In this document: positions 12,380 to 64,000 of the stretch, piece by piece
Layout of the letters: every line of letters starts with the position of its first letter
How positions within the stretch are numbered: position 1 is the stretch's first letter
NCBI GenBank assembly: GCA_905221605.1
Contig: CAJNDS010002370.1
Location: forward strand, 286,001 to 350,000
DNA length: 64,000 bases
From: Symbiodinium natans
Lineage: Eukaryota; Sar; Dinophyceae; Suessiales; Symbiodiniaceae
Reading direction: 5' to 3'
Position numbers and translations under genes: made by a program
Notes under the pieces: model-generated
What the model was told of the DNA's origin: nothing
Database searches by the model: none
Seen by the model: only the letters and a program-made list of their open reading frames with translations

Positions 12380-12395
12380 GCCATTTTGGCTCAAG
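12380..12395 (+). other. Spliced-leader relict
   Basis: GCCATTTTGGCTCAAG matches the last 16 bases of the dinoflagellate spliced leader exactly; the preceding bases do not match. It lies in the unexplained 12200-12480 segment inside the minus-strand LINE, on the opposite strand. A 16-base exact match by chance in 64 kb is very unlikely. Inference: the 5' end of a retroposed trans-spliced mRNA. Confidence 0.6.
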
Positions 12396-13416: not shown

Positions 13417-13890
13417 AATCGTCTGATGCCTCAGCATGTTCCGCGTGTAAAAAATGCAATCAATGCGACGTGTGATCCCCATAGAACTGCAAAATGCCCA
13501 CGAATTGTCAGGTTCCGAATCACCAACGTGCAATTGACACATGTGCAATGTCTGTAGCAACAAATCACCACGTAGGCCCACATGTAGCTGCGTGTTGAAA
13601 TCACCTCCCACGATACAAGCAAAAGACTTGGATCTAGCATCTTCCAAAATTTGATGCAAACGCTCATACACAAGCCGCATTTCAGCGTCAGGATAACCCG
13701 CATGTGGCATGTAAACGGCTGCAAATCGGACAGTTTTGTTAAAAGTTGTGACATCCACATACATCAAGCGCTCATTGACAACAACTGTTCGCTTCACATG
13801 TTTGCAATGTCGTTCATGAACTAGAATCCCGACTCCTGCACATGAAGTCGGCTGATGTGAAAAGTACAATCGATGTCGCCCATCAAAATC
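13417..13890 (-). pseudogene. LINE APE-type endonuclease, C-terminal part
   Basis: Minus-strand reading FDGRHRLYFSHQP, GVGILVHERHCKHV, RFAAVYMPHAGY, VGGDFNTQL (about 13589-13611) and ITRRIDCIFYT. These are motifs of the AP-endonuclease-like domain that nicks target DNA. It joins in frame to the N-terminal part at 17092 if the intervening 3.2 kb is removed. Confidence 0.8.
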
Positions 13891-16800
13891 CTCCGCCATT
13901 GTCGACGAGGGCCCCCACGCAGCTACGACCGCCTCGACGCCGGGCGCGCGTGCGCGAGTTGCCCGAGCGTCCTGGGAATGGCTGGACACAGTCGAGTTGA
14001 GGGACGCTTTTGCCACACCGGTCCCTACGATGCGCGATGTCCCACGCTTTCTCGCTGCTGGCGTGCGCCGTGCGTTCGTGCACGCGCTGCGTGGCCTGCA
14101 CGCGCCGAACCCGGCGGCCGGTGTCACAGCAGAGCGTGCCTGGAAGCTGTTCCTGCTGGTGCCACGCCTTTTGTTGGCGCGACCGCACGAAACGGGTGCA
14201 GCTGGCCGCGCCGCCTTATTAGAGCGGATCCGAGCCTTCGAGGCTGGGTGCTGGCGCGAACTGCTGGAAGCGGCGCCGTCTCCGGAGCAGCGCCTGCAGC
14301 GATCCGCAGGCACTGATGCGGAGCGGATGCGCGAGCGCGCTTGCGCGCAGGTACGCCGCGGTCAGTTGTCGCGCGCGCGCCAGACGCTCACCAGCGCTCC
14401 TTTGGCGCCGGGCAATGCGGCTACGTTACGCCTCCTTTCGGACCCCGACAAGCGACCGCCCCGTCCGCGCCAGCCGATGCCGGACGACATAGCCAGCTTC
14501 CGTGCAGCAGACCGTGTCCACCTCACTGCAGCTGAGTTGGGAGAAGCTTTGCGCACGGCTAAGCGTGGCAGCGCTGCTGGCCTGTCCGGCGCGGCGGTGG
14601 AACACTATCGCTTGCTGCTGGAGGACGAGGAGGCGATGGACTTGCTAGCGCACGCGGCATCCCTTTTGGCGAATGCTGATGCGCCCGCCGCCGTGCTGCA
14701 AGCCCTCGCGTTGTCCCGGCTCACCGCCCTTTCCAAGCCCGGCGGCGGCGTGCGCGGGATCGCGACTGGAGACACGCTACGCCGACTGGTGTCACGAGCG
14801 TTGGCGCGACAGTATGCTGACACGTTCGACCGCGCCACGCGGCCCTTCCAGTTCGCGCTTCAGGCCCGTGCGGGGACGGATTGCTTGGCAGCGATGCTGC
14901 GCGCGGCGAGCGAGCTGGATGCCGACGCCACCATCGTCTCGCTCGACGGAAGGAGCGCCTATGACACGGTCTCACGTGCCGCCTTCCTGAAGAAGCTGCG
15001 CGAGGTCGCTCCAGCCCTCGTCCCATATGTGCGGGCGTGGTACGGCGGCACCTCCACGTACCTGTGGTGGGACGCCGAGGGCCGGCGCCACGAGATCTCG
15101 CAAGGTGACGGCTGCGAGCAGGGAGATGCGTTAGCGCCGGCTCTGTACTCCCTGGCGCAACGCGATGCCCTAGCTGCGGCGCAAGGGCGATTGCAGCCGG
15201 GGGAGTTCCTTGCCGCTTTTCTGGACGACTTGTACCTCGTCACCACTCCAGCTCGCTCCCGGTCAGCGCTAGATGATGTCACGCGCACGGTCGAGCGGCA
15301 GGCTGGTGTCGCAGCTAATCTCGGGAAGACTCGGGTCTATCGCGCAAGTGGCGGGCCGCCCCCGCCCGATATCGCAGTGCTCGGACCCGAAGTCTGGTGC
15401 GGAGGTGACAGTGAACCGGCAACTTGCGGCTTTGTTGCATTGGGCGTGCCGATCGGGCACACGGAGTTCGTGCGACGCACTCTCGCGGCAAGGCTTGAGG
15501 AAGAGCGCCGCTTGCTGCACGAACTGCCGGAATTGCCTGATATGCAGAGCGCATGGCTGCTCCTGCTCTACTGTGCCAGCCCGCGTGCCCAACATGCTCT
15601 GCGCACGGTGCCGCCGCTGGACTCGGCCACCTATGCGGCAGAACACGATCGGGCGATTTTTTGGGCAACGCTCCACCACCTTCTAGCGGAGCGGGATGCG
15701 AGCGGGCGGGAGTGGACCGCAGCGCGCCAAATCGCCTTCCTCCCTGCCGCATGTGGTGGCCTCGGTCTCGCGAGCGCGGAGCGACTAGCCCCAGCGGCCT
15801 ACTGGGCGGCTTGGGCGGACGCGCTCCCGGTGATGCTGCAAAGACGCCCGGAGGTTGCCCGCCGATATGCGCAAGAACTCGCTCTTGGCGGCGGGTCGAC
15901 TGCGCCGTGCCTGCGGGCAGCTGCGGAAGCGGGTGACCGGCTGCTCGCCGAAGGATGGAGAGCGCGCCCGGAGTGGGATGCCTTGCTCCACGGGGCGCGG
16001 CCGCCGCCTACACACGCTGAGCCTTCAGAGCCTGGAAGTTGGCCACATGGCTGGCAGAAACCGGCAGCTTGCGTACTCAACAAATCCTACCGCGAGCGCC
16101 TCCTCTGCAGCTTGTCGCCAAGTTCCCGAGCACTGCTGCGCTCCCAGGCGGGCGCGCATGCCGGCGAGTGGTTGCGAGCAATCCCCACGGACGAGGGCAC
16201 GCAGCTTCTGCCGCTGGACATGCAAGTCGCTCTCCGGCGACGCCTTCGCTTGCCGCTACCCATGGCATCTTCCCGTTGCGGAGGACATGGCGAGCCAGGG
16301 TGCCGAGCCGTGGTGGACGAGCTGGGCGACCATCGCGCCGCCTGCGCCCGGAGTGGGCTGCTGGCCCGGCGCGCTCCCATACTTGAGCGAGCGTGGGTCC
16401 GAGTAGCGCGGGAGGCCGTCGCCGCCGAAGGGCGGGTGGTCCCCCAACAATGGCTAGCACGGACCACCGCAGCGGGCGTAGCCCCAGATGACCGGCGCCG
16501 ACTTGACCTCGTCATTTATGGCGCGTCTCGGCGCGGCGAGGCACTCTGCTGCGATGTGACCCTGGTTTCGCCGCTGCGCGCAGACGGACACCCGCAGACC
16601 GGCTCCTCAGATCGGGATGGGGCTGCCATCGACGTCGCGAGGCGGCGCAAACAACGGCGCTACCCCGAACTAGCCGGTCCGGGCCCGCAACGCCTCGTCG
16701 TCCTGGCTGCGGAGGTCGGCGGACGATGGGGGCAAGAGGCGCACGACCTCGTCCGCGACCTCGCGCAACAGCGCTCCCTGCGCGCGCCGAGGGCGCTGCG

Positions 16801-17089
16801 AGCTGCTGCCCGCTCCGGGTGGGAACGCCGGTGGTGGGGGCAGCTGGGATGCGCGTTGCAGCGCGCCTTGGCCTCGACGCTGTTGGGCGGTTGCTGGCGC
16901 GCGCCGGCGCAGCCAACCGGAGACGAGGGCACGCCGCTTGGCTGGGTCCTGGAGCTCGCCGAGGCTGAGCAGCAGTCCAGGTTGCCCTTGCGTGCTTGAC
17001 ACGCTGCGGCCCGAGCAGCCTGCCGATTCCGTGCACAGGGATCGCGAACACTGACGCGAGCAAAAGGTGCGTTGGAGGGAAAAAAAAAA
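13891..17089 (+). mobile_element. REL-RT retroelement, nearly complete, inserted in a LINE
   Basis: The insertion ends in ten A (17080-17089) on the + strand. Flanks read CATCAAAATC (13881-13890) and AAAATCAACC (17086-17095), so up to 6 bp (AAAATC) could be a target duplication, though the poly(A) makes it ambiguous. The frame of the large ORF is open right to the 5' junction with no stop between 13892 and 13997, so the copy is probably 5'-truncated inside its ORF. GC content is far above the flanking LINE. A short 3' UTR of about 80 bp separates the stop from the poly(A). Confidence 0.8.
13997..16999 (+). CDS. Reverse transcriptase with C-terminal restriction-like endonuclease, 1000 residues open
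   Basis: A single uninterrupted frame. The first ATG is at 14030; the frame is open upstream to 13892, so the true start may be lost. RT motifs: about residues 248-258 (LSKPGGGVRGI), VSLDGRSAYD near 314 (first catalytic Asp), CEQGDALAPALY near 375, FLDDLYLV near 408 (catalytic DD; Leu replaces the usual Ala of FADD), and FVALGVPIGHTEF in the thumb-side motif. C-terminal half: Cys/His knuckle CRAVVDELGDHRAAC near 769 and an acidic core RRLDLVIYG...CCDVTLVSP near 834-860, the pattern of the restriction-like endonuclease of R2/CRE/NeSL-type elements. No N-terminal zinc finger or Myb domain is seen, consistent with 5' truncation. The absence of stops over 3 kb suggests recent activity. Confidence 0.85.
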   Translation: MRDAFATPVPTMRDVPRFLAAGVRRAFVHALRGLHAPNPAAGVTAERAWKLFLLVPRLLLARPHETGAAGRAALLERIRAFEAGCWRELLEAAPSPEQRLQRSAGTDAERMRERACAQVRRGQLSRARQTLTSAPLAPGNAATLRLLSDPDKRPPRPRQPMPDDIASFRAADRVHLTAAELGEALRTAKRGSAAGLSGAAVEHYRLLLEDEEAMDLLAHAASLLANADAPAAVLQALALSRLTALSKPGGGVRGIATGDTLRRLVSRALARQYADTFDRATRPFQFALQARAGTDCLAAMLRAASELDADATIVSLDGRSAYDTVSRAAFLKKLREVAPALVPYVRAWYGGTSTYLWWDAEGRRHEISQGDGCEQGDALAPALYSLAQRDALAAAQGRLQPGEFLAAFLDDLYLVTTPARSRSALDDVTRTVERQAGVAANLGKTRVYRASGGPPPPDIAVLGPEVWCGGDSEPATCGFVALGVPIGHTEFVRRTLAARLEEERRLLHELPELPDMQSAWLLLLYCASPRAQHALRTVPPLDSATYAAEHDRAIFWATLHHLLAERDASGREWTAARQIAFLPAACGGLGLASAERLAPAAYWAAWADALPVMLQRRPEVARRYAQELALGGGSTAPCLRAAAEAGDRLLAEGWRARPEWDALLHGARPPPTHAEPSEPGSWPHGWQKPAACVLNKSYRERLLCSLSPSSRALLRSQAGAHAGEWLRAIPTDEGTQLLPLDMQVALRRRLRLPLPMASSRCGGHGEPGCRAVVDELGDHRAACARSGLLARRAPILERAWVRVAREAVAAEGRVVPQQWLARTTAAGVAPDDRRRLDLVIYGASRRGEALCCDVTLVSPLRADGHPQTGSSDRDGAAIDVARRRKQRRYPELAGPGPQRLVVLAAEVGGRWGQEAHDLVRDLAQQRSLRAPRALRAAARSGWERRWWGQLGCALQRALASTLLGGCWRAPAQPTGDEGTPLGWVLELAEAEQQSRLPLRA

Positions 17090-27828: not shown

Positions 27829-27977
27829 AGAGCCTCAGGGCCTCAGGGCCTCAGGGCCTCAGGGCCTCAGGGCCTCAGGGCCTCAGGGCCTCAGGGCCTC
27901 AGGGCCTCAGGGCCTCAGGGCCTCAGGGCCTCAGGGCCTCAGGGCCTCAGGGCCTCAGGGCCTCAGGGCCTCAGGGC
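27829..27977. repeat. 8-bp minisatellite, about 18 copies
   Basis: Perfect tandem repeat of CCTCAGGG. As the unit is 8 bp, three units make 24 bp, giving an 8-residue peptide periodicity in a spanning frame. No evidence that it is translated. Confidence 0.98.
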
Positions 27978-56130: not shown

Positions 56131-56149
56131 GGTTTAGGGTTTAGGGTTT
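56131..56149 (+). repeat. TTTAGGG tract 1 (2.7 copies)
   Basis: GGTTTAGGGTTTAGGGTTT directly precedes the spliced-leader sequence of LINE copy A. TTTAGGG is the plant-type telomere repeat, also reported for dinoflagellates. Confidence 0.95.
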
Positions 56150-56171
56150 TCCGTAGCCATTTTGGCTCAAG
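56150..56171 (+). other. Complete dinoflagellate spliced-leader sequence
   Basis: The 22 bases match the conserved dinoflagellate SL consensus (D-CCGTAGCCATTTTGGCTCAAG) at every position, with T at the variable first base. It is in the genome at the 5' end of a LINE, not in an SL RNA gene: no donor GT follows (the next bases are GGTTTGG). Confidence 0.95.
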
Positions 56172-56186
56172 GGTTTGGGGTTCAAG
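56172..56186 (+). other. Second, decayed SL relict
   Basis: GGTTTGGGGTTCAAG follows the intact SL. Its TTTGGGGTTCAAG aligns with the TTTTGGCTCAAG end of the SL with a few changes. This is what remains if an already SL-tagged, reinserted copy was transcribed and trans-spliced again. Confidence 0.6.
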
Positions 56187-56209
56187 GAAGAGATAGGGTC
56201 GACGGGGCA

Positions 56210-57360
56210 ATGGCTTCGAACGCTGAGACTATTCGATTGCCCAGTGAGGACGAAGATATGAGTGATGCTGGGTTGGAGGGGCAGCCGAAGCGCAAGAAGC
56301 AGATAGATGCTGAAAACATGACACTTGCAATTCCCCCAGCTTCCGATGCACCTCCTGCATGGATAGAACAGTTTCAGATGGCTTTGAGATCCGAAGTGAG
56401 GGATATCAACAATTCTGTCGCTGCCTTTGGAGGCCTGTTACAGAGGGAGAGTGAGGATCGTAGAAGAGATATCAGTGAAGTCAACAAGCGGCTTGATGAG
56501 TTAACTGGCAGAATAGACGCGGTCTCCAAAGGTTCTGGATCGGGTTCATCCTTCAATGCGGTTCCTCCTCCGGCTGCTACTATGCCCCAGCATTCTGCAC
56601 GAGCTTCTGGATCAGGCTCATCCTTCCACGCGGTCCCTCCCCGGGCTGGCACTGTGCCCCAGCATTCTGCACCAGCTACCGGACCACCGGCGGATCCTTG
56701 GGCGCAGTACCTTGGAGCAAAGCAGGGTCCTTCCTCGCCCTCGCCTTCGTCAGGCTCCGGAACTGATGCCCAAGACTCCACTGACTTTTGTCATATTGTC
56801 GTCGGCGGCTGGGAGCATGACACGCCAAAGCGACAGATCCAGGATGCTCTCAACGAAAACCTGCTCACTGGGATCAGGACGACAGGTTGGCAGTTGTCAA
56901 GGTGGTGGTCTTCACTCAACGGGCCAGGACCGGTCACATCTTCTTGAAGGAGCTTCCCACAGACCAAGCTCGTGCTCGCTTTTATGCATTGCAGGAGAAG
57001 CATGGAAGCAGGGTGAGAACAAACACCGACCAGAGTTACTTCTCGCCAAGCAAGCCCCCGGAAGTCCGCAAGAAGAATCGCGCAACGCGCGAGATCGGCA
57101 ACCTCATCAGTCGGATCACTGGTTCCCCAGTTCAGCAAGAGGACATTGATTGGAGTCGGCAGATTGTCTGGTGCGGCAAGGCAAGAGTTGCGGCTTTGTC
57201 TGCTCACGCTCTTCTGGCCGCAAGGGACAATAAGCTGATGGTTCGCCCGGTGAGTGATGAGTATGGTGAGCAGACTCTCTTCCATATCAACCTTACTGCT
57301 TTGGCCATTGCAGCCAGGCAGCCTGAAGCCGAGATTGAGAAACGTGTCAACTCCCCCTGA
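56210..57360 (+). pseudogene. LINE A ORF1
   Basis: First ATG after the SL. The N-part is acidic, with a nuclear-type basic patch (QPKRKKQID) and a coiled coil (about residues 60-110), then a Ser/Gly/Pro linker containing an internal duplication (SGSGSSFNAVPP / SGSGSSFHAVPP), then the conserved CHIVVGGWEHDTP motif. After a frameshift near 56880 it continues to HINLTALAIAARQPEAEIEK and TGA at 57358. The same layout occurs in copy B. The likely role is RNA binding for the RNP; no CCHC knuckle is seen. Confidence 0.7.
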
Positions 57361-57378
57361 CACCTTCCCAGTCCAGCT

Positions 57379-60300
57379 GTGCATGGCAACAGGAGATACT
57401 GGAATACCAATGTTAATTTTAAACACTTTGCCTCTTGGAACATTCAAGGTAGGGCATTGCAGCGTTTCGACCATTGGTTTGATGAGGTTGGGGATTTCTT
57501 TGACTTTGTTGGCTTACAAGAGGTTGGTCAACTGGGTTCCCTTCCAATAGTACGGGAATTCGAGTCTGGTGTTTGCCAGTACCTCCTCCAGGACTTTCAA
57601 GTGGTTCGTGAGTATGTGGCAGTTGGCACGACCGCCTGCGCTTCCCACCTGGGGCAAGTGATCCTACTTCAGAGCGAGAGTGTACAGCATATCTGCTCAG
57701 CTTGGCATGGTGACAGATTCCTGGCAGTGGAAGTGCAGTTGGTTGCTTTGAGCCACCCGTGCATCATAGCATCTTGCCACCTCCCCCACAGTGCGAATTC
57801 AGATGAGCTATACTTCGATGCCTTAAGGGAACTGGTTCAGCTCATGGTACAGTACGTACAAGCACCTTCCCATTATTCTTCTTGGCGATTTTAACTGCGA
57901 ACCGGGTAGTGAAAGGGCCATTCAGTTTTTCTCATGCATCCAGCTACGAGGTGGCAAGATGCTTCGCACACACGAAGCGACAAGATGGGGCAGAAACTCT
58001 CAATCCGAGCTCGACTACTTCTGTTGCAATCGGGCTTTTCTTGAGGTCGCTGTGCCAGAGGATGGAGCCCTCCATGTCACTTGCCATCCTTCCTCACGTA
58101 CAGAATTGGGCAGTGATCATTGTTGCATTTCGCTTGTTGTTGCTCTGCGCGGTACCCCCCCAGCATCTTCTCCGCCATGCCAGACCGAAAGCAAGAAACG
58201 CAAAAGAGGTCGTCCTAGCAAGTGTGGCAGGTGGCGTGTGGATGCTGAGAAGCTCCAGAGCACCATTCATGAGGTATGCCACCAGTACGCAGAAGCAGCT
58301 GATCTTCGAGGAAAATGGGAAGTATTGACTTCGTCTGCTCGGCGTGTTTCCTACCCCAAAGGATCCCTGAAACATGTTGACAGTCCCAGCTTGAAGGCGC
58401 TTTGCTTGTCCCGACGTTTGGCCACTGATCCCTCGGAGAGAACTGCCTTGACGCGGCATATCGTGTCACTCCGTCACGTCGAGAAGACGTGCTGGCTCCA
58501 ATCCCTGCATCAGAGGAGCAGAGAGGGCGATGCCCAGGCAATCAAGTACCTGAAGCAACGCTACTCCCCATACAAGGGCAGCACGGACACCTTTGTTGAA
58601 AGTTCAGGGGGACTGTCGCAGGCAGCTACTGCCCTACAGAATCATTACCGACAAGTGTTTCAACGCCCCGTTTCAGCAAGTCAACAGGCCATGATTGATG
58701 AGGCCGCCAGCATCTTTTCACAACGTGCATGTGACTGCCCCAGCCCGGACTTCACTATTGACGAGATACAGGCATGTATCAACAGGTTGAAGTGGGATAG
58801 GACTTCGGGGCCTTCTGGTATGTCGAATGAATACCTCGTAGCCTTTGGCAATTAGCGGAAGGCCAGCAGCTACTGTGCGACTTCCTCAACAAACTGCTTC
58901 GGGCAGGGGACCTCCCGTCGGCGCTGTGTGAAGCACAAGTAGCTCTGCTGCCCAAAGTTGCCGCTATCGCGAGCCCAAAGGACTATCGTCCTATTAACAT
59001 GCTTGAGAGCCTACATAAACTTCTGTGTTGGCTATTGGTCTCCCGCCTTGCTGCCTCCTGGGCTGTGCCAGAAATACAGCTGGGAGGGATCAAGGGGTCG
59101 CAGGTGTGCGATGCAATGATGACGGCGCAGTGCAGAACAACTCGCGACTCCAAGGAATGCCAATACAGTATTTATTTGTCAGCTGACATACAAGCAGCCT
59201 TCGACTCTTTAGAGCACTCTACTATCGCACAATTTCTTCTTGAAGAGTGTGAGGCCCAGCATGGCAGCGAGGCTCTCCAGATGCTAAAGCTCTTGACTTT
59301 GCCCTCACTTATGTTCGATTGGAAGGGCTATTCATGGGATATTGAGCAAGGCACTGGAATACAGCAGGGTGGAAGCCACAGCGCAATACTGTTTTCATAC
59401 ATCTTAGGACGAGCGTGCCAGAAATTGGAGTCAGAGTGGAAGAAAAGAGGTGAACACACCCGTCATTCAACGATTTCACTCCTATTCATGGATGATTTGT
59501 TGCTGGCCTTTGACAGCTGGCCACAAGCAGTGAGGCTGACAGAAGAGCTGCGACAAGTCCTGCGGCCAATGGGTTTAGGGCTCAATGCCAAGAAGACCAC
59601 CCTGATGTCCCACACCTCTGTTCTTGAAGTGGGTAGAGCGATGGAGTTCCCTGAGCATTCGTTTCTCACAAGTGTAGCTTGGGCCACGTCATGCACTTAT
59701 CTCAAGAAAACACTCACACACTATGAAGTTGGGGTGATGAGTGGCTACACGGACACCACAGCAATCCTTCTAGATGCCTGCGTGCGGGCCACGCATGCAG
59801 CTTACGAGTCGTTGCACTGTTGTGTCCGCAAGGGTCATTGGTCATGCTTGTCTGCCACCATTCGTTTATGCAACACTTATATTGGTGGTACCTGGTACTG
59901 GTACGCCCCCTTGATGGAACCTCTTGTTAAGTATGTTTCCAGGGTCCAGTCTCAACAGGTAATTTTTTTGACCCAACTCTTCGGGCTCAACATTCCAGAG
60001 TGCCTGGGCAAAGAAGCAGCAGTCTTCCTGCACCGGGTCCGACGGCGAACTGTGTTACAGGTCCTGGCTCACGAGCCCGAGAAGCAATGGGTTGCCATTT
60101 GGTGTAAACGCAAGTGGTCGTATCTGGGGCATGTGTTGCGGATGAAGGAGTCCGCGCTAGTTCGGCAAGAGGTCCTTTCAATGAGCAGTCTCAAGCAAGC
60201 GCATCCGGGACCTCTACACCACATCCTGCGATGGGGTTGCACCACAAGCGGCAGGGACACCGCTGCGCTCACAGCATTGGCGCAGGATAGGGAGGCGTGG

Positions 60301-60687
60301 ATTGCAGACTTTGACAGTCGTAAGCAAGCCTTTCTACATGTACACCCAGTTCTACATGCTATTTCCACGAATCGTTGGCGAGATGTTTTCAGACTAGAGG
60401 TTCCCTGGCGGCTCGGGGTGTTCGTGCGGTGCGTGGGGGACGCCTACAGCATTCACTGGCTCCATGTGTCGGAGGGTTTTCAAGCCTTCTCGCGGACTGG
60501 CACGCTAGAACACGTAATTATCACCTGGGTGCAATGGATCCAGTTGGAGTTTTTGGGTTTGCTTCTGATTTCCATATGCATGAAGATCTCCTCCAAAGTC
60601 AGGGCGGCGTCTTGCTTGAACTCCATGATAGCATCTATTCCAGTCATCGATATGTTTGTTCTTTCAACAGTGTGCCCCCGCGTATAG
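57379..60687 (+). pseudogene. LINE A ORF2: APE endonuclease and reverse transcriptase
   Basis: Endonuclease: FKHFASWNIQG, FVGLQEVGQLG (catalytic Glu), IIASCHLPHSANSDE, then after a frameshift at about 57893 LLGDFNCEPGS, QSELDYFCCNR and GSDHCCISLV (catalytic Asp/His). A basic linker (KKRKRGRPSKCGRW) follows. RT: SGPSGMSNEYLVAF, then after a frameshift at about 58853 PKDYRPINMLESLHK, LSADIQAAFDSLEH, GTGIQQGGSHSAILF and STISLLFMDDLLLAF (catalytic DD at about 59490). The RT frame from 58999 is open for 562 codons, through a Cys/His-containing C-terminal region (LAHEPEKQWVAIWCKRKW; YLGHVLRMKE). The three breaks make it inactive as it stands. Confidence 0.85.
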
Positions 60688-60783
60688 CTCGTAAATGATT
60701 TCCTTAGTTCAACATTCAGACTGAGCGTGTTGCCACGAGAGCGACGAGCTCGACCAGGCGCGCTGAGACAAGCCTGTGCAAAA

Positions 60784-60844
60784 AGGGTTTAGGGTTTAGG
60801 GTTTAGGGTTTAGGGTTTAGGGTTTAGGGTTTAGGGTTTAGGGT
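60784..60844 (+). repeat. TTTAGGG tract 2 (about 8.6 copies)
   Basis: Perfect tandem repeat joining the A-rich 3' end of LINE A to the SL relict of LINE B. Confidence 0.98.
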
Positions 60845-60870
60845 TTTTGGCTCAAGGGTTTCGGCTGAAG
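60845..60870 (+). other. Tandem truncated SL relicts of LINE B
   Basis: TTTTGGCTCAAG (60845-60856) is identical to the SL end. GGTTTCGGCTGAAG follows, in which TTTCGGCTGAAG (60859-60870) matches the same end with two changes. The arrangement is the same as in copy A. Confidence 0.75.
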
Positions 60871-60910
60871 GCTTTCACCTGTTAAGGCTAGGAGGGCTCG
60901 TAGAGGGCTC

Positions 60911-62101
60911 ATGGATGGTACCGGGTCTGCTTCAGATGATGAGCTGGGTTCAGGCTCAGGGGCTGAGATGGCTGATGGCGACGAAGCACCGAGGAGAAAG
61001 TGGGGCAGAGAGCTGGCCAAAACGGGCGAGGAACCTCCTTGGGTTCAGAGTTTGAAGGATTCGCTGGTTGCTAATGTTTCCTCTGCAATAACCAATCAGC
61101 TAGCCACTCAACTTGGCCATATCAACGAGAGGGTTAACACTTTGCAGGGAGAGATAGCAATCGAGTCCAACGAGCGAATGTTCAAGATATGCAGTCAGTA
61201 AGCAAGCGACTTGATGACCTGGAGACTACCGTCAGCAACAACCTGAAGCCCATCAGCCCCAGCTTCAGGGCAGTGCCACCGCCGAGAGAGGACAAATGGC
61301 CAACAGGTAGTGAGGATCCCTGGCAGCGACCTGCAGCACCTTCGGGGGTTCGAGTTCCCCCAACCTCACCTTTGCCTGCTATGTCTTCGACAGATCCGTG
61401 GGGTCGGTATGCACAGAAAGGCGCAGTTTCAGGAGGCGATTCTCGCGTGGACAGTGCTAGCGGCTCCCCCTCTCCCACGTCTTTCCAGGACACGGACTTC
61501 TGCAAAATCATAGCGGGCGGATGGGAAACAGACACACCAAGGTCGGTCATAAAGAAGGAAGTTGCGCAGTGCATAAGCCAGTGGGAGCAGGCAGTACGGC
61601 AGCAGGTGGTTCGCACTGTTGTGTATGGAAGAAGATCAAGGACCGCCAACATTATCTTGACCCAGCAACCGCATGAACAAGCCCGCGAGCGTTTCTATGC
61701 TATTCAGCAGGCTTACAGTAACAAGATTCGGACCAGTACTGGTGGTTCGTTATACCGTTATACCTGTCCCCACATCGCACAGCGGGCCTTCGAGCAAAGA
61801 ACCGTAGCATGAGGATGGCCAAAGAATCCGTTGAGAAGGTTAGTGGACTGACTTTCGATGCTGAGGGAAGCTACCTGGAGTTGGATTGGGGAAGGCAGTT
61901 GGTCTGGTGGGGCAGAAAGAGAGAGTTGCTGCGGCGACCAAGCCACACCTCCTTGCAAGGGAGGGTGACCAGATCTTCACGAAGACCTTCGTCGATGGGT
62001 GCAATGAAAGGTCCGATTTTTATTTCAATCTCACGCTGCGGGCCTCTAAGTGTGAGAAATCCAGTGCCGATGTCGAAGCCATGCTGCGCGCCGAGCCCTG
62101 A
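60911..62101 (+). pseudogene. LINE B ORF1
   Basis: Starts ATG 60911 (acidic/Ser-rich), coiled coil around 61080-61250 in two frames, Pro/Ser linker, CKIIAGGWETDTP motif at about 61500-61540 and ILTQQPHEQARERFYAIQQ, corresponding to copy A. Frameshifts near 61195 and 61800. It ends TGA at 62099-62101. Confidence 0.7.
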
Positions 62102-62129
62102 CACCAAGATCCCGGACTCGGTAAACCTG

Positions 62130-62460
62130 AATTTATAACATTTGCTAGTTGGAACCTACGGGGCAAAACTCTTCGAGACTTTATGACCTGGCATGAAAAA
62201 ACGGGCGAATGTCTTGATGTTGTGGCTCTGCAGGAAGTGGGTGGTGTTGCTGCTCTTCCGATAGTGCACGACTACGGGGAAGGACTTGCGCAGGTGACAT
62301 TACACGAGTGCAGCGAGATCCATGATTACGTTGTCTTTGCTTGCACACAACTCTCTTCGCACCTAAGTCAAATGATGCTTGTTGGCAGGGACTGCGTTGA
62401 CCATGTTGTTCATTGCTGGAAAGGAGACAGACTTTTGGGTGTTGAGATGGTTTGTGCATA
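62130..62460 (+). pseudogene. LINE B endonuclease, first part
   Basis: Reads EFITFASWNLRGK, DVVALQEVGGVAALPIVHD and WKGDRLLGVEM, aligned to copy A. It is interrupted at 62465 by the LTR element and resumes at 63695 with RHLVVVGCHLPHGDNSDEDF when the element and one TSD copy are skipped. Confidence 0.8.
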
Positions 62461-62465
62461 TTCGA

Positions 62466-63689
62466 TGTTTTGTGGCACGGTCAATTGCATATGAACAGTG
62501 TGAGCCTTTGGGACTGTTTCTGCTTTCGGGTTGGGTTTGGGGGAATTCTCCTCCAGAATCCACTGGCCCGAGCTGCCATAGATGCGGCGTGCCATAGGGT
62601 TGCAGAGCCAAACGGTTCCTGAAGCAATGAAGCAGCGTGCAGACGCAACAACGTCTTGGAGACAAAAAGCAGTTTCCGATATGAGCCCATGGCAATACAG
62701 AAAATACCGGAGGCATCAGGCCATGATGCGAGGCCAGGACCTTCAACAGGTTAAGAGCCTTGCTCCACCGACTGGGCAAGGACTAGAGCGGGCAACCAGG
62801 GAAAACCAGCAGCCGATGCTACACTTGCTGCTTGGAGTGAATGCCACTGAGCAGGGGGGCGTGACAGGCATGACTGCAGGTAGACATGCTGGATGTTGGG
62901 AAGGACGTTGGGAACCTTTGAAGCAGACGTGCTTTGTGCCCACTGCCGTGAAGATGAATGCGTTCGTGCAAACAGCAAGAGAAGTTCCTCGCGTGCACTT
63001 GGACCCAGGGAGCAGCTTGACAGTGCCTGTCTCCTGCGAGCGCAAGACGGACTACACCAAGCTTCTTCTGGACTGCGAAGCTGGGAACCGCCGAGTCCAC
63101 CAAGCATTGGGCACAGCTCTCAGTGAGTTTTCTGGAAGCATGCGTGAAACGATTCGTCGTAATATGGTCCTGGCCTATGATGAGTGGGAAGCCGTGGATC
63201 GTGAGCTTGCGAGGTATCGCCACCAACGTCGCTCAGACTCCTACACTCAAACTGAGGCGCCGCGAAGCATTCGGAGGAGCGTTCCTGCAGCGTGAGTTGA
63301 CACTGGCGCAAATCTGGGTGTGTGGCCTTGGCAGTTCTCAGCACTACTGGCTGTACGCCCGCCGCAACATGCCACAAGTAAACTTCGCTCCCTTGGCAAG
63401 CCTATGCTCGCGAAGAGGGGCGTGTTTTGTGGCACGGTCAAGTGCATATGAACAGTGTGAGCCTTTGGGACTGTTTCTGCTTTCGGGTTGGGTTTGATGG
63501 AGTTCTCCTCCAGAATCCACTGGCCCGGCGTGCCATAGGGTTGCAGAGCCAAACGGTTCCTGAAGCAATGAAGCAGCGTGCAGACGCAACAACGTCTTGG
63601 AGACAAAAAGCAGTTTCCGATATGAGCCCATGGCAATACAGAAAATACCGGAGGCGTCAGGCCATGATGCGAGGCCAGGACCTTCAACA
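62466..63689 (+). mobile_element. Non-autonomous LTR retroelement (TRIM-like), 1224 bp
   Basis: LTRs 62466-62748 (283 bp) and 63423-63689 (267 bp) differ by one 16-bp indel and about five substitutions. Both start TGTTTTGTGGCAC and end CTTCAACA (TG...CA). A 5-bp duplication TTCGA flanks it (62461-62465, 63690-63694). A purine tract GAAGAGGGG (63412-63420) lies 2 bp before the 3' LTR; a putative primer-binding site begins GGTTAAGAGCC at 62749. The 674-bp interior has no protease, RT or integrase. It is inserted in a LINE endonuclease reading frame, with the target frame restored when it is removed. Confidence 0.85.
62582..63295 (+). CDS. ORF of the TRIM-like element, starting inside the 5' LTR
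   Basis: A 237-codon open frame from ATG 62582. The first ~55 residues lie in the LTR (with DMSPWQYRKYRRHQAMMRGQ), the rest in the interior, ending TETQTEAP-like sequence and TGA. It includes the 16 bp present only in the 5' LTR. No gag knuckle or pol motif. The interior half (RRVHQALGTALSEFSGSMRE) looks like ordinary cellular coding sequence, so it may be a captured gene piece. Product unknown. Confidence 0.45.
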   Translation: MRRAIGLQSQTVPEAMKQRADATTSWRQKAVSDMSPWQYRKYRRHQAMMRGQDLQQVKSLAPPTGQGLERATRENQQPMLHLLLGVNATEQGGVTGMTAGRHAGCWEGRWEPLKQTCFVPTAVKMNAFVQTAREVPRVHLDPGSSLTVPVSCERKTDYTKLLLDCEAGNRRVHQALGTALSEFSGSMRETIRRNMVLAYDEWEAVDRELARYRHQRRSDSYTQTEAPRSIRRSVPAA

Positions 63690-63864
63690 TTCGATGAGGC
63701 ATTTAGTCGTGGTTGGCTGCCATCTTCCTCATGGTGATAATTCGGATGAGGACTTCCAGAGCTCGCTGAGGGATGTCCATACTTTGCAGCGGTCAGTAGT
63801 CTCGAGGGTTACGTTTCAGCTAGTCCCCCACCGAGTTTTGCCGGCTCTGTTAGGGCTGCTTTAA
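63690..63864 (+). pseudogene. LINE B endonuclease, second part
   Basis: RHLVVVGCHLPHGDNSDEDF matches IIASCHLPHSANSDE of copy A. The match ends soon after (DVHTLQRS), where an internal deletion removes the rest of ORF2. Confidence 0.75.
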
Positions 63865-63922
63865 GCACTGCCTCTCAGAGTGCCTGTAACCGAGCTGCTG
63901 GCGCACGAGGCTCGCTGCAAAA

Positions 63923-63963
63923 GGGTTTAGGGTTTAGGGTTTAGGGTTTAGGGTTTAGGGTTT
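63923..63963 (+). repeat. TTTAGGG tract 3 (about 5.8 copies)
   Basis: Directly follows GCTGCAAAA at the 3' end of LINE B. Confidence 0.98.
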
Positions 63964-63986
63964 TTGCGTCCGGGCTCTGTGCGCAA
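63964..63986 (+). mobile_element. 23-bp spacer, probable extreme 5'-truncated LINE copy
   Basis: TTGCGTCCGGGCTCTGTGCGCAA interrupts the telomere-type repeats. Its end (GGCTCTGTGCGCAA) resembles the 3' termini of copies A (AAGCCTGTGCAAAAA) and B (AGGCTCGCTGCAAAA). Confidence 0.45.
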
Positions 63987-64000
63987 TTAGGGTTTAGGGT
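63987..64000 (+). repeat. TTTAGGG tract 4 (continues past the window)
   Basis: TTAGGGTTTAGGGT up to the last base. Confidence 0.95.

Follow-up and report, generated by a model that had tools for sequence, protein, structure and literature searches.

LINEs of a dinoflagellate genome join dispersed TTTAGGG arrays at a fixed phase and, in some copies, start with the spliced leader

Here, we analyzed a 64-kb stretch of DNA from the dinoflagellate Symbiodinium natans (hereafter the window; assembly GCA_905221605.1, contig CAJNDS010002370.1, here C2058:286001-350000), in which two long interspersed nuclear elements (LINEs), LINE A and LINE B, lie among TTTAGGG repeats. The results make it quite probable that a clade of LINEs of the apurinic/apyrimidinic endonuclease (APE) type inserts into dispersed short (TTTAGGG)n arrays by copying a trans-spliced, leader-capped RNA. 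The junction between tail and AGGG, with its precision, was observed in the relatives read, as were the leader in A, its 15-nt core in 11 other elements bearing a reverse transcriptase (RT), and the position of the targets inside contigs; from these we infer the nick, the priming, the trans-splicing of the LINE RNA and the copying of the leader-capped RNA to its end. Overall, we consider this a real system, in which two families of a larger clade use dispersed repeats as their target and the leader forms the 5' end in the copies where it is visible. The genome searched was the window's own 759-Mb assembly of 2543 contigs.

LINE A (56150..60783) and LINE B (60847..63921) are arranged head to tail at the right end of the window; these and the other features given between 56133 and 64000 lie on the + strand. 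As read in the sequence, A is preceded by a (TTTAGGG)2TTT array (56133..56149), nine TTTAGGG units in the phase AGGGTTT (60784..60846) separate A from B, and six units in the same phase (63922..63963) follow B. The 3' junction reads GTGCAAAA|AGGG in A and CTGCAAA|AGGG in B, and the arrays preceding the two elements both terminate in TTT. The preliminary description of this DNA, which had reported 3' ends joined directly to TTTAGGG repeats and 5' ends placed after TTT, was thus correct for A and B. Matches to the TTTAGGG 14-mer with up to one mismatch numbered 13 versus 0.02 expected, all of them in the three arrays or in the last bases of the window. The 64 kb contain no further array with at least two units, and AGGGTTTAGGG was absent from the other 56 kb. 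A 23-bp stub (63964..63986), formerly counted as a probable third copy, was rejected as such and is not supported as a LINE end, since its score as a LINE 3' end was equalled or exceeded by 261 of 1000 shuffles (22 of its 23 letters tested) and it joins TTAGGG, not AGGG. It is followed by TTAGGGTTTAGGGT (63987..64000), which is cut off by the window end; 2500 N come directly after (contig positions 350001-352500), and the last array therefore could not be followed further.

The reading frames of A are broken by one shift in open reading frame 1 (ORF1; 56210..57360, two frames) and by two in ORF2, which comprises an endonuclease part (57361..58855, two frames) and an RT part (58831..60687; Pfam RVT_1, E=4e-20). 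The endonuclease part contains WNIQG, LQEVG, GDFN, LDY and SDH, which we take to be endonuclease motifs. A is identified as a LINE by its RVT_1 reverse transcriptase, its A-rich 3' end and the lack of long terminal repeats (LTRs). The closest PDB relatives of its RT were R2-type LINE proteins (E=9e-9 and weaker), and PDB searches with the endonuclease and ORF1 pieces gave nothing useful and no endonuclease match. A Pfam search of ORF1 returned no family above its cut-off; our impression is of a coiled coil plus a layout resembling an RNA recognition motif (RRM). LINE B consists of ORF1 and an endonuclease fragment that runs into the 3' tail, the RT being missing, and it harbors a later 1.2-kb insertion (62468..63688). 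The terminal repeats of this insertion are direct (92.6% identity over a 283-bp alignment), and 8 bp, ATTCGATG, are duplicated at 62460 and 63689. This inner element, with a 237-aa frame, resembles a miniature LTR-type element. At the DNA level, the resemblance of A and B is limited to the arrays, the initial tens of bases and some short, weakly matching stretches, and tblastx pieces of ORF1 and the endonuclease were 31 to 53% identical. Judged by these comparisons, A and B are two diverged families within a larger clade. The initial view of a single LINE family was wrong: there are two, and the genome holds a larger clade, although both LINEs of the window do lie in arrays.

To follow the 3' junction through the genome, relatives were collected with the RT of A. 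With 71 of 645 candidates scored, 75 matches had an E value of 1e-10 or less; these include A itself, and some are parts of the same element. Many sit in open frames of about 1100 aa. Sequence was read for 500 bp beyond the RT match in 16 relatives. AGGGT was joined directly in all 14 with 31 to 99% identity (L055 to L068), hence in 14 of the 16, and it extended to AGGGTT in 13 of these, L064 having AGGGTA. Nine junctions carried a perfect AGGGTTTAGGG (L055 to L058, L060, L061, L065, L066 and L068; for nine of 16, P is about 1e-10 when the array-rich sample serves as background and 6 nt of slack are allowed), the repeats were degenerate after the junction in L059 and L063, and the repeat was left within one unit in L062, L064 and L067. 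One to about six A preceded AGGG, except in L056, which has GGAG where its sister L057 has GGAA.

The same junction was observed with a conserved 14-base tail, AAGCCTGTTGCAAA, found at 129 + 115 = 244 sites versus one for the reversed control. The tail, 1 to 8 nt and AGGGTT occurred together in 155 raw rows. With AGGGTTTAGGG in place of AGGGTT there were 69 raw rows (68 distinct) versus none for the control, and the gap was 2 nt in 49 rows, 3 in 12, 1 in 4, 6 in 1 and 8 in 3. Among the first 100 of the 244 tail sites, AGGGTT followed directly at 52, versus 6.2 expected even at array-rich density, and the perfect 11-mer at 25. These junctions fit insertion at TTT^AGGG, in the geometry of the silkworm element SART1, and the insertion point first proposed from the window alone is thereby supported beyond it. 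Target-primed reverse transcription that starts from a nick at CCCT^AAA agrees with the fixed phase, the single orientation and the A-rich end.

At the 5' end, the preliminary description had overlooked the spliced leader. The first bases of A (56150..56171), directly after TTTAGGGTTTAGGGTTT, are the exact 22-nt dinoflagellate leader (formula DCCGUAGCCAUUUUGGCUCAAG with D = T; PMC6050394), and B starts with the leader's last 10 nt, TTGGCTCAAG (60847..60856); GGTTT follows the leader in both. Genome-wide, the 21-nt core of the leader occurred 205 times (reversed control, 0), a mark of a dinoflagellate host, and 63 of 671 leader cores overall (60 places; 97 raw rows) had TTTAGGG within 25 nt upstream. 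We then considered the 52 RT matches that start at query residue 15 or earlier. Upstream of 12 of them, A included, there was an exact 15-nt core with TTTAGGG no more than 25 nt before it, at distances from the RT match of 2606 to 2668 bp in nine cases, 2452 bp in C2387, 1589 bp in C1867 and 1248 bp in C2126. Ten of the twelve cores thus fall at a near-fixed 2452 to 2668 bp, which places the leader at the 5' end of the element. The TTTAG|GG of the array was also considered as the trans-splice acceptor, and was rejected as the predicted leader + GGTTTAGGG occurs 0 times.

The leader could instead be an encoded part of the LINE, such as a leader-like promoter motif, rather than a product of trans-spliced RNA; once present in the DNA, it would be carried along by later copies. 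We consider this unlikely, given that the match spans the whole 22 nt and that leader sites include tandem extra 15-nt cores (e.g., C1669:564133 and C1753:236941), which are a mark of repeated trans-splicing (PMC3229502), although none of these lies at an RT match. Several other observations concern the leader itself. At C1112:2649195, C1813:199118, C1822:599941, C1884:27460, C2256:56692 and C2278:191749, among others, CTCAAG is preceded by the initial letters of the leader in reverse complement, and a 15-nt core follows; a variant leader or snap-back at the end of the cDNA would give this arrangement. Of 15 listed cases, 13 had T, A or G before CCGTAG, a share within chance. C479:102078-129887 holds six exact cores on one strand, several of them 3.77 to 3.79 kb apart, perhaps a tandem cluster of leader RNA genes. 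Within the window, a near match to the core (CCATTTTGGCTCAAG) at 12381-12395 is followed by CCATGG and has no TTTAGGG array.

Some LINEs end in simple repeats. The TTTAGGG units might likewise belong to the element, as its own 3' tail or as an addition of telomerase to the cDNA, with the 5' arrays being tails of earlier copies; that AGGGT starts every in-clade 3' end read is what this explanation would predict. Near-identical copies, however, meet different flanks: the sister pairs L056/L057 (98.6%), L058/L063 (95.5%) and A/L059 (95.8%) are identical to these degrees up to about the junction and differ beyond it, the repeats being degenerate next to L059 and L063 but perfect next to their sisters. 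Tails derived from a single RNA would not differ like this, and the arrays therefore appear to pre-date the insertion. Since TTTAGGG also precedes leaders at 5' ends, and since 2.37 million overlapping triple matches stand against 244 tails, ownership of the repeats by the element is quite improbable.

The repeats are abundant across the assembly. (TTTAGGG)3 gave 1,185,204 + 1,184,385 overlapping matches (about 2.37 million) versus 41 + 33 for the reversed pattern; as each match adds at least 7 bp, TTTAGGG makes up at least about 16.6 Mb, or 2.2% of the assembly. In the stretches read, the arrays were short, in both orientations and within contig interiors. Their density was high at C1 230-280 kb and in C300-C900 and low in C100 and at the beginning of C1, and C2058 352-400 kb had none. 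In C1:230001-280000 and the samples of C300, C500, C700 and C900, they recur at intervals of a few hundred bases, in either orientation, and most have no A run before them. That LINE insertion made most of them was rejected, as an A run precedes only 4 of 243 sampled arrays, two of which are those of the window.

TTTAGGG is the dinoflagellate telomere repeat (PMC11453091, PMC11508785), and the LINEs might accordingly form a chromosome-end system, living in terminal telomeres or taking part in their maintenance. There is little chance of this, with the A/B pair at 342-350 kb of the 466-kb contig and 15 of the 16 relatives farther than 10 kb from a contig end. The telomere-targeting or telomere-associated system suggested beforehand is thus half right: the repeats are supported as a target, and chromosome ends are not, the arrays being dispersed through contig interiors in both orientations. 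The enrichment of copies at contig ends, set in advance as its test, was not seen (1 of 16 relatives within 10 kb), though the end of a contig is not necessarily that of a chromosome, so that terminal copies may exist. In Karenia, interior telomere signals were rarely seen by fluorescence in situ hybridization (FISH; PMC6395649); arrays as short as these might escape FISH. The slimmest chance is that of no targeting at all, by chance adjacency in a TTTAGGG-rich genome or by an unspecific endonuclease preferring A/T-G/C steps: arrays do cover much of some regions and leaders are preceded by CCCTAAA more often than by TTTAGGG, yet the phase is fixed to within a base in 65 of the 69 junction rows, the excess at the listed tail sites exceeds even array-rich density, and both LINEs of the window sit in arrays that its other 56 kb lacks.

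Insertion of a leader-capped RNA into pre-existing arrays would proceed as follows. The LINE RNA would be trans-spliced like a host mRNA and so start with the 22-nt leader. The endonuclease of the element would nick the C-rich strand at CCCT^AAA, and the freed 3' end would prime reverse transcription of the RNA from its short A-rich end. The resulting copy would end in (A)n|AGGG, in a single orientation within the array, and whenever the RNA is copied through to its end, the new element would start with the leader beside the upstream TTTAGGG.

Several results weigh against this reading. The matches to the APE-like endonuclease family PF03372 had E values of 0.0043, 0.011 and 0.044 overall, the first two of them in A, and all lie below the Pfam cut-off. 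Forty of the 52 RT matches lack an exact leader core with TTTAGGG, whether by decay, truncation or other flanks, and the 5' junctions of relatives are known from pattern-match rows only. TTTAGGG upstream of the 671 cores exceeds expectation only 1.6-fold (63 seen versus 38.6 expected, a rough figure scaled from 93 kb, where TTTAGGG stands no more than 25 nt upstream of about 5.7% of positions). Leader sites in general favor the opposite orientation: CCCTAAA upstream of cores gave 168 raw rows, and the 100 that were listed comprise 65 distinct sites, which extrapolates to about 109 sites, 2.8-fold over the same background. At the 3' side, 48 of the first 100 listed tail sites are not followed by AGGGTT. 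Moreover, the two most distant relatives, L069 (30%) and L070 (26%), end in (GA)n, and while L069 lacks AGGG, the tail of L070 continues as AGGGTTCAGGGT; L070 may share the target, and the pair gives no clean outgroup control. Two uses of the data were consequently not upheld, namely these two relatives as an outgroup and the whole set of leader sites as evidence for TTTAGGG.

The preference of leader sites for CCCTAAA raises the possibility of a second LINE group inserting in the opposite orientation, as TRAS does relative to SART. Contigs up to C1860 carry 33 RT matches with a query start of 15 or less; one of them (C302; 30% identity) has a CCCTAAA-leader 3.7 kb upstream, another (C1740) has one downstream, and five have a TTTAGGG-leader upstream. 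A CCCTAAA-leader site, perhaps of an opposite-orientation class, is seen at C302:562810-562852. In two Symbiodinium genomes, more than one gene in five is a leader-tagged retrogene, the maker of these retrogenes being undecided. Tentatively, and with rather more doubt than confidence, dispersed telomere repeats may be general landing pads for retrotransposition in this dinoflagellate, at which two LINE groups insert leader-capped RNAs oppositely ((A)n|AGGG for the clade of the window versus CCCTAAA|leader for another), the same machinery having also made the leader-tagged retrogenes.

Elsewhere in the window, an intact 1047-aa frame with RT (13856-16999; RVT_1, E=8e-14) represents another, different LINE-like element, whose surroundings are free of TTTAGGG for 5 kb, and a perfect tandem array of 18 copies of GCCTCAGG spans 27832-27977. 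The tRNA and Rfam scans of the window were both empty. Scans of the sets viral_contigs and genome_contigs with the RT protein confirmed no relative; the junction pattern was absent from the viral contigs and occurred in 7 contigs titled bacterial in genome_contigs, whose flanks were looked at and taken as unrelated.

If the proposed insertion route is true, the LINE borrows host mRNA processing for its 5' end and provides concrete candidate machinery for the recycling of dinoflagellate mRNA, a disputed matter in which PMC6050394 favors LTR elements and PMC10235124 favors LINEs. It would also give a role to the interior TTTAGGG repeats, at least about 2% of the assembly. Symbiodiniaceae LINEs have been described as diverged remnants of an ancient expansion (PMC8045281); the intact frames and the 98.6% identical pair of 3' ends suggest later activity of this clade. 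Telomere-associated retroelements are listed for insects, fungi, a green alga, rotifers, Giardia and a lizard in PMC10088271, and our search of the open-access literature turned up neither a telomere LINE from a dinoflagellate nor a LINE reported to begin with a spliced leader.

The closest known system is SART1 of Bombyx mori, which carries ORF1 and an ORF2 with APE-like endonuclease and RT, and whose insertion point on the G-rich strand lies between T and A (TT^AGG), with the A tail joined to AGG (PMC7265360). The ORF1 plus ORF2 plan and the insertion geometry are the same here. The differences are the TTTAGGG target in dispersed interior arrays, the 5' leader, the very short A tails (1 to about 7 A) and the dinoflagellate host. 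The SART1 assay requires at least three repeats (PMC7265360), and several targets here are shorter or degenerate, by decay or through looser demands than those of SART1. The clade appears to work like SART1 and may belong with it in the R1 clade; the PDB search with the RT of A gave R2-type proteins only. TRAS1 of B. mori shares the telomere-repeat target and, putatively, the APE-type endonuclease (PMC7265360) but has the opposite orientation, and may resemble the CCCTAAA-leader class, which is known from pattern rows. Zepp (Chlorella), MoTeR (Pyricularia), FoTeR (Fusarium) and GilM/GilT (Giardia) are likewise retroelements beside telomere repeats (PMC10088271, PMC12857005), but they are described at chromosome ends, whereas the present LINEs lie inside contigs and carry a spliced leader. 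The Penelope-like telomeric Athena elements lack an endonuclease; endonuclease motifs and below-cut-off PF03372 matches were seen here. Finally, retrogenes tagged with the dinoflagellate spliced leader (DinoSL) have the leader or its relics copied into the 5' end of the DNA (PMC6050394, PMC3229502), as is seen here with 22 nt in A, 10 nt in B and the core at 12 of 52 RT matches; the difference is that the copied RNA would be the LINE's own and the target TTTAGGG.

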